Below are positions 50,305-53,550 of a DNA stretch of 64,000 nucleotides, in pieces; within the stretch, counting starts at the first letter, position 1; the number at the start of each line of letters is the position of its first letter. The notes beneath the pieces are model-generated. The model was not told the DNA's origin. It saw only the letters and a list, made by a program, of their open reading frames with translations, and did not search any database. The stretch comes from an uncultured Pelagibacteraceae bacterium (GTDB lineage: Bacteria > Pseudomonadota > Alphaproteobacteria > Pelagibacterales > Pelagibacteraceae): NCBI GenBank assembly GCA_902527215.1, contig CABZOF010000001.1:499498-563497 (forward strand). The letters run 5' to 3'. The translations under genes and the position numbers were made by a program.

Positions 50305-50360
50305 ATACTTCAGTATTTAACTTATTTATTGACTTTTTGAACCTCTATTATAGTTTATCG

Positions 50361-50464
50361 CCGTTTCCGCAAAATACAGCAATTTGCGGTGTCTTTGGTA
50401 ACAAAGAGATCGACACCAGTCAGCGAGAGTTCGCCCACTGGTGCGATACTTGCTGGATGTGATT
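50361..50464 (+). promoter_or_regulatory. Folded leader RNA upstream of ffh (candidate cis-regulator)
   Basis: Three stems are readable. They are CCGCAAA/TTTGCGG (50367-50389), TCTTTG-GTAA-CAAAGA (50392-50407, GNRA-type loop), and CACCAGT/ACTGGTG (50414-50443) with an inner GCGA/TCGC. GGTGTC (50388) can instead pair with GACACC (50412), which would disrupt all three. The loop CAGCAA (50377) is complementary to TTGCTG (50450-50455), just before the ATG at 50465 and next to the likely ribosome site GGA. No SRP RNA core (GGAAGGAAGCAG type) is present. A TATTAT/TATAGT-like -10 lies at about 50346-50353. Confidence 0.6.
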
Positions 50465-51823
50465 ATGTTTGAAAATTTAACAAATAAATTTGAAGAAATA
50501 TTTTCTTCTTTAAAAAAGGCGCCTTCGCTTGATGAAAAGCAAGTAGATGAGGGTTTAAGAGAGATTAGGCTTGCTCTTTTAGAAGCGGATGTATCTTTAG
50601 AAGTTGTAAAAGAATTTATAAATAGAGTGAAACCCAAAGCTCTTGGCCAAGAGATCATTAGGTCTACTTCACCAGGACAGATGGTAGTTAAAGTTGTTAA
50701 CGATGAGTTAATTTCTTTCTTAGGGGATAAAAATTCTGATATTGAATTAAATGCAGTACCTCCTGTTCCAGTGATGTTAGTTGGGTTACAGGGTTCTGGA
50801 AAAACTACAACTACAGCTAAGTTAGCAAGATTTTTAGAGGCTAACAAAAAGAAAAAAGTTATGATGGCTAGTCTAGACGTTTACAGACCTGCTGCACAAG
50901 AGCAACTAAGACTTTTGGGTGAGCAAAATAATATAATAACGCTTCCAGTCATCAAAGATCAACTTCCTGCAGATATTTGTAGAAGAGCGATTACTGCTGC
51001 TAATCTTAATGGAGCAGATGTAATTCTATTTGATACAGCCGGAAGAACTCAGATTGATTTACAAATGATGAGTGAGATTAAACAAATTGAAAGTATTATA
51101 AATCCTTCAGAAACAATTCTTGTCGCAGATTCTTTGACTGGCCAAGTAGCAGCTAATGTTGCTAAAGAATTTAAAAGTACTGTTAATCTGACAGGTATTA
51201 TTCTTACAAGATCAGATGGCGATGGAAGAGGTGGAGCAGCATTAAGTATGAAATATGTTGCAGATGTTCCAATTAAATTTTTAGGAGTTGGTGAAAAGAT
51301 AGAAAATTTTGAAGTTTTTCACCCAGACAGAATTGCCAATAGAATTTTAGGTATGGGAGATATTGTTTCCCTTGTTGAAAAGGCTGCAGAAGATCTAGAT
51401 GAAGAAAAATTAAAAAAAACAGAGGAAAAATTAAAAAAAGGTCAGTTCTCGTTAGAGGATTATCTTACTCAGCTAAGACAAATGAAAAAAATGGGTGGTA
51501 TTGAAGGTATAATGTCTTTTTTGCCTGGTGTTTCAAAAGTTAAATCTCAAATGGATCAAGCTGGAGTGGATGAAAAAATAATTACTCAAAACGAGGCGGT
51601 AATATTATCTATGACTAAAAAAGAGCGTGAAAACCCTAAGATTATAGATGGTTCTAGAAAAAAAAGAATTGCTAATGGCTCAGGAACAGACGTAGCCACT
51701 ATCAATAAATTGCTTAAGCAATTTAAGATGATGTCAGAAATGATGAAAAAAATGTCCAAAGGAAATACAAAAGGGATGATGGATAAAGGCATACCACCAG
51801 AACTTTTTAATCAATTAAAATAA
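50465..51823 (+). CDS. ffh: Signal recognition particle protein Ffh
   Basis: This 452-residue SRP GTPase has an N domain from MFENLTNKFEEIFSSLK, G1 GLQGSGKTTTTAKL, DVYRPAAQEQLRLL, DTAGRTQIDLQMM and TRSDGDGRGGAALS (an Arg and Gly variant of TKxDGDARGG). The Met-rich M domain ends with IANGSGTDVATINKLLKQFKMMSEMMKKMSKG. I start at ATG 50465; the track start at 50441 lies in the leader. It is the first gene of the ffh-rpsP-trmD-rplS block. Confidence 0.97.
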   Translation: MFENLTNKFEEIFSSLKKAPSLDEKQVDEGLREIRLALLEADVSLEVVKEFINRVKPKALGQEIIRSTSPGQMVVKVVNDELISFLGDKNSDIELNAVPPVPVMLVGLQGSGKTTTTAKLARFLEANKKKKVMMASLDVYRPAAQEQLRLLGEQNNIITLPVIKDQLPADICRRAITAANLNGADVILFDTAGRTQIDLQMMSEIKQIESIINPSETILVADSLTGQVAANVAKEFKSTVNLTGIILTRSDGDGRGGAALSMKYVADVPIKFLGVGEKIENFEVFHPDRIANRILGMGDIVSLVEKAAEDLDEEKLKKTEEKLKKGQFSLEDYLTQLRQMKKMGGIEGIMSFLPGVSKVKSQMDQAGVDEKIITQNEAVILSMTKKERENPKIIDGSRKKRIANGSGTDVATINKLLKQFKMMSEMMKKMSKGNTKGMMDKGIPPELFNQLK

Positions 51824-51835
51824 ATAGGAGAACAA

Positions 51836-52318
51836 ATGTTAAAAATGCGTTTATCAATGGGAGGAACTAAGAAGAGACCAGTTTATAAGATAGTGGTTGC
51901 TGATAGTAGATTTCCAAGAGATGGAAGATTTATAGAAAAATTAGGTTTTTTTAATCCTCTAATTCCGAGAGAAAAAAAAGAAAGAATGGGATTAGATGTT
52001 GAGAGAGTTAAGTATTGGCTAGGTCAAGGGGCACAACCAACAACTAGAGTTGCAAGATTATTAGGAGAAAATGAGATTATGCCTATGCCAGCAAAAGGTA
52101 ATAATCCTCAAAAAGCAATTCCAAAAAAAGATAGAAAGAAAACTGATGAAGGTGGCGAAGCTAAAGCAGATGCTCCCAAAACAGAAGCTCCGAAGGAAGA
52201 AGCTAAAACAGAAGCTCCGAAGGAAGAAGTTAAAGCTGAAGCTCCGAAGGAAGAAGTTAAAGCACAAGCTCCGAAGGAAGAAGTTAAAGCAGAAGCTCCG
52301 AAGGAAGAAGCTAAATAG
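51836..52318 (+). CDS. rpsP: 30S ribosomal protein S16 with repeat tail
   Basis: Residues 1 to about 85 are canonical S16 ([25 protein letters not shown].. [33 protein letters not shown]). The remaining 75 residues are a charged tail. It ends in five 9-residue units of the type EAPKEEVKA, so the protein is about twice the usual length of 80-90. A good ribosome site (AGGAG) precedes the ATG. It lies 12 bases after ffh. Confidence 0.95.
52184..52315 (+). repeat. Five 27-bp tandem repeats in rpsP
   Basis: The unit GAAGCTCCGAAGGAAGAAG plus TTAAAGCA (with minor changes) repeats five times, the last one codon short. It encodes [36 protein letters not shown] and EAPKEEAK. The near-identity of the DNA points to recent expansion or contraction by slippage or recombination. 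Confidence 0.9.
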
Positions 52319-52322
52319 AATA

Positions 52323-53006
52323 ATGTTTTTGTCTAGAGTATTTACGTTGTATCCTGAATATTTTCCTGGTTATTTGAGTAAAGGCCTTTTTGGAAAGTCA
52401 AAAGGAAAAGAATGGGATTTAGAAACAGTAAACATAAGAGATTATGCTTTAGATAAACATAAAACTGTTGACGATACTCCTTATGGCGGAGGGAATGGAA
52501 TGATTATGAAAGCAGATGTTTTGGCAAATTCATTAGATGCAAATATCAAGGCTAAAGAAAAGACCCTTTATTTAAGTCCAAGAGGAAAAGTTTTTAATTC
52601 TAAACTTGCAAGAGAGTTTTCGAGTGAAAAAACAATCAATTTAATTTGTGGACACTTCGAAGGAGTAGATGAGAGAATACTAGAAAGTAGAGATATTGAA
52701 GAGATTAGCATTGGTGACTTTATATTGTCAGGGGGTGAGGTTGCTGCATTTGTTGTAACAGACTCTATTTTAAGATTTATTCCAGGAATTCTAGGTAATA
52801 TTAATTCCTCAAGAGATGAGAGTTTTGAGAATGGCCTTCTTGAATATCCACAATTCACAAAACCTCAAGTTTGGGAGGAAAAAAAGGTCCCAAATGTGCT
52901 AATTTCAGGTGATCACGCCAAAATTAAAGACTGGCGTTTATCCCAATCTGAGGCTATAACACGCGACCGAAGACCAGACTTGTGGCAAAAATATAAGAAA
53001 AATTAA
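52323..53006 (+). CDS. trmD: tRNA (guanine37-N1)-methyltransferase
   Basis: This is a 227-residue SPOUT methyltransferase that makes m1G37. The start at ATG 52323 gives the family N-terminus [16 protein letters not shown]; the track start at 52071 reads the rpsP repeats in another frame. Motifs are [66 protein letters not shown] and the C-terminal [16 protein letters not shown]. Confidence 0.97.
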
Positions 53007-53007
53007 A

Positions 53008-53550
53008 ATGAAAAATATTGAAGAAATAAACAGATCAAATTTAAACAAGATTATTTCTGAGAGAAAACATCCTGATTTTTTCCCTGGAGACATCGTTAAA
53101 GTTGGGGTTAGGATAACAGAGGGTAAAAGAGACAGAATTCAATATTTTGAAGGTGTATGTATCGCAAAAAAGAGTAGAGATATCAATTCATCTTTTACTG
53201 TTAGAAAAATTTCTTTTGGTGAGGGAGTAGAAAGAACTTTTGCATTATATAGCCCAATTGTTGATACAATAAAAGTTGTAAGATCAGGAAAAGTAAGAAG
53301 AGCAAAATTATACTATCTAAGAGATAGAACTGGTAAATCTGCTAGAATAGCTGAAAAAATTAAGAAGACGATTGGTATTGATTTAGAAACTAAAATTAAT
53401 GAGGTTACTGAGGAAAACGTAATGCCATCAACTGATCCTCAAACAGAAGCTCCTAAAGAAGAAGTTAAAGCAGAAGCTCCTAAAGAAGAAGTTAAAGCAG
53501 AGCCTGTAAAAACAGAAGAACCGAAAGAAAATCAAGAACAGAAAAAATAA
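53008..53550 (+). CDS. rplS: 50S ribosomal protein L19 with charged tail
   Basis: Residues 1 to about 120 are canonical L19 ([73 protein letters not shown]). A tail of about 60 residues follows, with two EAPKEEVKA units like those of S16 and a final [14 protein letters not shown]19 is usually about 115-130 residues. It starts 1 base after trmD. Confidence 0.95.
53446..53499 (+). repeat. Two 27-bp repeats in rplS tail
   Basis: Two copies of GAAGCTCCTAAAGAAGAAG plus TTAAAGCA encode EAPKEEVKA, the same peptide unit as in rpsP. The third and fourth codons are CCT AAA here against CCG AAG in rpsP, so the two tails do not look like a very recent copy of each other. Confidence 0.85.

Follow-up and report, generated by a model that had tools for sequence, protein, structure and literature searches.

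The ffh motif RNA of Alphaproteobacteria: a three-hairpin leader that may regulate the ffh-rpsP-rimM-trmD-rplS operon independently of SRP

The ffh motif (Rfam RF01793) was described by Meyer et al. in 2009 in 'Candidatus Pelagibacter ubique', where one bulged hairpin lies before ffh, and it is also known from Rhodobacterales, Sphingomonadales and Rhizobiales (PMC2704228). These authors raised a possible role in the regulation of ffh, and reported that the motif does not resemble the part of SRP RNA to which Ffh binds (PMC2704228). Since then the motif has stayed an orphan, Ffh being the suspect by default, and Rfam assigns it the type sRNA. SRP RNA itself (RF00169) has with it a functional link to Ffh in common. 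The other systems to which it can be compared are the leaders of ribosomal-protein operons, such as the rpsB and rpsL motifs (PMC2704228), which are likewise structured 5′ leaders with a presumed protein ligand.

The RNA considered here lies in a stretch of 64,000 nucleotides from an uncultured Pelagibacteraceae bacterium (contig CABZOF010000001.1), the whole of which is referred to as the window. Positions 50399-50451 of the forward strand match RF01793 with 58.7 bits, against a curated cut-off of 35, and ffh begins 14 nt past the end of the match. The element is an already catalogued family, found here in the group of its discovery, and RF01793 is present in 267 of the 297 genomes of the window's order, whole genomes being the source of the related leaders compared below. 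A previous reading of the locus from the sequence only had not recognized the leader as a known riboswitch class, which was wrong insofar as the RNA is catalogued, and had suspected that it might be listed already, as indeed it is in Rfam. The same reading stated that this is not an SRP RNA: a permissive Rfam scan (to E 5) gave no RF00169 match in the leader, the SRP RNA gene of the same genome sits elsewhere, and mimicry of SRP RNA by the leader was ruled out for lack of similarity to RF00169. No other Rfam family fits the leader.

The locus and the published model have in common the P3 hairpin, the two conserved bulge cytosines, the site before ffh and the organism group. However, whereas the published model comprises one bulged hairpin (52 positions), the unit found here adds two further hairpins, P1 and P2, and a 3′ tail (Table 1); of P2, the 3′ half at most falls within the Rfam model. 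The leader (50363-50464, about 100 nt) has a GC content of 48%, compared with 31% for the window, and its predicted fold (-37.1 kcal/mol, z -4.4) is better than those of 200 out of 200 dinucleotide shuffles. Of 83 distinct SAR11 leaders, 72 have the promoter consensus given in Table 1 at 10-12 nt upstream of P1, and shuffled upstream sequences never do, while a generic promoter-consensus scan did not pick out the TTGACT/TAGTTT pair. From the promoter spacing, transcription would start at about 50362-50364, some 3-5 nt ahead of P1. The list of open reading frames starts ffh further upstream, at a GTG at 50441, and the true start of trmD lies downstream of 52071; the frame listed for trmD begins inside rpsP in another frame.

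Table 1. Positions in the window of the leader elements and of the genes that follow them
Feature	Positions	Strand	Basis or remark
-35 element TTGACT	50329..50334	+	TTGAC-N16/17-TAnnnT promoter conservation
-10 element TAGTTT	50351..50356	+	TTGAC-N16/17-TAnnnT promoter conservation
P1 hairpin, CCGCAAA/TTTGCGG	50367..50389 (50367-50373/50383-50389)	+	absent from the Rfam model
Outer P2, CGGU 50387-50390 with AUCG 50409-50412	50387..50412	+	paired in 28/28
P2 hairpin, GTAA (GNRA) loop	50392..50407 (50392-50397/50402-50407)	+	covariation
P3 hairpin	50414..50443 (50414-50420/50437-50443 and 50423-50426/50431-50434)	+	pairing, covariation
Conserved 3′ tail, CGATACTTGCTGG	50444..50456	+	column conservation
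ffh, first gene of the operon	50465..51823	+	ATGTTTGAAAATTT; start conserved in relatives
rpsP (S16)	51836..52318	+	gene next to the element where ffh is missing
trmD ORF (52071-53006), then rplS (L19, 53008-53550)	52071..53550	+	ORF list

This larger architecture is supported by covariation. In an alignment of 28 non-redundant SAR11 leaders, built without any model, 97.4% of the cells are paired and 10 of the 24 pairs changed on both sides, namely two of the seven pairs of P1 (93% of its cells paired), all six of P2, and two of P3, in which every cell is paired. As a control, sliding the partners by 1-3 columns lowered the pairing to 38-46%. At the level of the class, 22 of 24 pairs are compensatory, including all seven of P1, with 95.6% of the cells paired (99.9% in P3), figures that lean toward structure, since this alignment was fitted to a model and includes, among 71 rows, 5 weak matches on the opposite strand. 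A covariance model of P1-P2-P3 made from SAR11 only recovers the full architecture in other Alphaproteobacteria; at one locus (L368) it scores 64.7 bits, versus 50.0 for RF01793. These comparisons indicate that P1, P2 and a tail at fixed spacing, most of which the 52-nt Rfam model leaves out, are conserved far beyond SAR11, and a fuller three-hairpin model may recover more members than the existing one. The three-stem fold with one GNRA loop, proposed from the sequence of the GC-rich leader, was thus borne out: many compensatory changes were found in homologous leaders, where their lack had been named as evidence against the proposal, and the leader is both conserved and structured, with cis action being probable.

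Two details of P3 and the tail deserve attention. P3 carries a C50421/C50436 mismatch, adjoined by A50422/C50435; the latter position reads A/C, C-G, G-U or U-A in remoter lineages, and it therefore behaves as a pair. An outer extension of P3 (AUCG with CGAU) was discarded, because, of its four pairs, three are kept in no more than 17-21 of the 28 leaders. In the tail, C1, U4, U8, G9, U11 and G12 are conserved at 90-99% in 99 SAR11 leaders, and C1, U4 and U10-12 at 74-97% in 87 leaders of the Rhodobacterales type. Between the P3 core and ffh lie 30 to 151 nt, depending on the species, while the spacing of the tail is fixed to P3 and not to ffh, which makes the tail part of the RNA and not of the ribosome site. 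The same distances argue against the earlier idea that the leader hides the start codon, at least as a general mechanism: in many species the P3 core is too far from the start codon for blocking of the ribosome site to be general.

At every assignable locus the element lies in sense orientation upstream of the same operon, which includes the ribosomal-protein genes rpsP and rplS. The order motif-ffh-rpsP was seen in 63 loci (those with enough DNA), with trmD and rplS following, and annotated Sinorhizobium and Rhizobium records have the same order, with rimM and an inserted chorismate mutase as additional members. Many Rhodobacterales have rpsP 1.5-4 kb past ffh, with other genes in between, which weakens the link to the operon without breaking it. 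In Rhizobium sp. NLR16a (L452, NZ_CP072868.1, 210460-218527), an ftsY-mtaB-dapF / motif-ffh-rpsP-rimM-trmD block is located on a plasmid of 489 kb, which thus carries core genes of translation and secretion in this strain; the two plasmid matches examined are not stray copies, as both proved to be the normal operon on large replicons. Viral contigs scanned with a loosely defined pattern gave matches such as chance predicts for so permissive a pattern, and these were set aside. Two further observations concern the window itself: its rpsP and rplS both encode repeated APKEE-type C-terminal extensions, and a weak tRNA match at 1116-1182 (30.7 bits) is barely above the Rfam cut-off, with none reported by ARAGORN.

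Since the operon is the common factor among the loci, a feedback leader acting on it fits best, and we consider it fairly probable, from comparison of the loci, that the RNA acts in cis as a 5′ leader of the ffh-rpsP-rimM-trmD-rplS operon and senses a component of the translation machinery. In this model, transcription would start within a few nucleotides of P1, and the RNA forms P1, P2 and P3, followed by a conserved unpaired tail. A putative factor of the translation apparatus, protein or other, would then bind P3, with its C/C mismatch, and the tail, and its binding would modulate how strongly the operon is expressed, feedback being the likeliest mode. Among candidate ligands, one of the operon's own products would come first, S16 for instance, as a guess made from gene order. 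Contrary to the ribosomal-protein operon leaders mentioned above, the first gene here is usually ffh, and no 16S mimicry was seen. Mimicry of 16S was dropped as an idea because no 16S-like stretch was found in the leader, the best score being a meaningless 9.6 bits (the comparison covered 16S, the 23S being masked in the genome).

An alternative that we regard as rather unlikely, although it would accommodate several of these facts, is that of a general 5′ element, that is, an mRNA stabilizer or a contact for RNA polymerase or Nus factors favoring read-through of a long operon, with no sensing involved. It would agree with P1 lying at the predicted start of the transcript, with the variable distance to the start codon and with the retention of the element upstream of both ffh and rpsP. 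However, the invariant C/C mismatch and the tail suggest a specific binder, even if polymerase could be that binder.

An alphaproteobacterial order (G335), represented by 18 genomes, most of them incomplete (L407-L411 and L436-L449), bears on the notion that Ffh is the partner of the RNA. Its members are AT-rich, and their genomes reach about 1.4 Mb. No member of the SRP54 family, to which Ffh and FtsY both belong, was found above the cut-off in any of the 18 genomes (one fragment of 20.5 bits lay below it), the window's Ffh as query found nothing in the five genomes searched, and SRP RNA was detected in none of the 18. SecY, used as a control, was found in 14 of the 18, including all six with a completeness of at least 90%. 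The order appears, from these searches, to have lost the whole SRP pathway (Ffh, FtsY and SRP RNA). RF01793 is nevertheless present in 14 of the 18 genomes, and rpsP follows the element directly in each of these 14; in one family of the class (f41) the element precedes rpsP and not ffh. This departs from RF01793 as published, which precedes ffh. Among 12 leaders of the G335 order, all 132 cells of P3 are paired and two of its pairs show compensatory change, the C/C mismatch never varies (12/12), and P2 alternates between CGGUUC/GAAUCG, CAGUCC/GGAUUG and CAAUCC/GGAUUG. The pattern is common to all three genera of the order, so that, in the simplest reading, the changes in P2 and P3 arose after the loss of ffh. 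As P3 was kept and went on covarying after that loss, the RNA would have been maintained without SRP.

These observations bear directly on autoregulation by Ffh, in which the protein, alone or in competition with SRP RNA, would bind the leader and repress its own translation. Such a mechanism would match the position of the element before ffh nearly everywhere (PMC2704228 and the loci analyzed here), as well as the possible regulatory function for ffh that Meyer et al. put forward in 2009 (PMC2704228). However, retention of a covarying element before rpsP where neither Ffh, FtsY nor SRP RNA is detectable, together with the lack of similarity between the leader and SRP RNA, makes it improbable. 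Retention without a detectable SRP leads us to infer that Ffh or SRP RNA is not a required partner of the leader, and the link to Ffh accepted for the element probably tells only part of the story.

It has also to be asked whether the RNA is an independent trans-acting small RNA that lies before ffh by chance, which we find quite improbable. Besides the type given by Rfam, this possibility draws on the presence of 'ffh' RNA among the small RNAs of a marine metatranscriptome (PMC2704228), on its report in Bartonella (PMC7717549) and Mesorhizobium (PMC5596092), and on sm5 of S. meliloti, a predicted sRNA with an array signal (PMC2573895). Such reports are a point against a pure cis element, which needs none, and may leave room for a fragment released from the leader. 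Against a small RNA stand the constant sense orientation before one operon and the absence of terminator-like sites: none was found in the window, and tails with at least five U in eight are few (6 of 87 Rhodobacterales-type leaders and 5 of 99 SAR11 leaders). The sequence thus gives no sign of a stable RNA ending before ffh at P3, the outcome that had been named as contrary to a leader. P3 was likewise rejected as an intrinsic terminator or attenuator, as it does not combine a GC-rich hairpin with a run of U.

The mutually exclusive folds originally proposed for the leader fared less well than its stems. GGTGTC (50388-50393) and GACACC (50412-50417), put forward as a switch, are complementary in the window, but no compensatory change was found in relatives, whose pairing (86.3%) is matched by shuffled columns (86.8%), and the ensemble probability in the window is 0.0; the switch was ruled out for lack of covariation. 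A pseudoknot between CAGCAA in the P1 loop (50377-50382) and TTGCTG in the tail (50450-50455) held up only as to complementarity: in the minimum-energy fold of the window the two form, with a probability of 0.79, a nested helix that leaves P1 open, and relatives with an ATTA loop in P1 still keep the GCTG of the tail. When own and swapped loops and tails were compared, the difference reached a z of only -2, uncorrected for relatedness, and the pseudoknot was dropped on account of this weak test and of its loss in relatives. A helix that would close the leader by pairing its 5′ flank with the tail was equally weak (z -2), and the inferred start site, leaving few nucleotides of 5′ flank, speaks against it.

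A different pair of exclusive helices is better supported by the comparison of leaders than either of these proposals, although unproven as a switch. Outer P2 competes with the last three pairs of P1 for the bases CGG (50387-50389), and its four pairs as well as the three overlapping pairs of P1 are kept in all 28 SAR11 leaders. A C to U change in the shared bases is matched on both partners in 6 of the 28, probably reflecting few independent events, and it is a possible sign of real strand exchange. The change from CCG/CGG/AUCG to CCA/UGG/AUCA (50387-50412), with both partners matched, was seen in three SAR11 genera. The predicted energies of the exclusive P1 and outer-P2 folds in the window are near equal (-29.5 and -28.9 kcal/mol), and among 82 leaders the dominant predicted helix is P1 in 47 and outer P2 in 25. 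In the G335 order, P1 and outer P2 do not overlap and the P2 stem is continuous, so the exchange cannot be universal. For the feedback leader favored here, this exchange might be what moves in SAR11 and Rhodobacterales. A small-molecule riboswitch that controls translation through exclusive folds, for which the conserved helices of near-equal energy would speak, is highly improbable, given an operon head without any metabolic gene, the lack of conservation of both pairings first proposed and the separate P1 and P2 of the G335 order.

No description of the larger architecture or of its SRP-independent retention was found in PMC2704228 or in the rest of a limited literature search. To our knowledge, SRP is usually treated as universal, and its loss across an entire order would be unusual given that presumption. 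In a bolder reading, the 'ffh motif' would be misnamed and would instead be an ancient, SRP-independent regulator of the alphaproteobacterial S16/TrmD/L19 operon, made of three hairpins and a tail, a proposal that may as easily prove right as wrong. For a family whose default suspect has been Ffh, retention of the element without Ffh constitutes a clean comparative test, and it would steer the search for the ligand to S16 or other translation factors.
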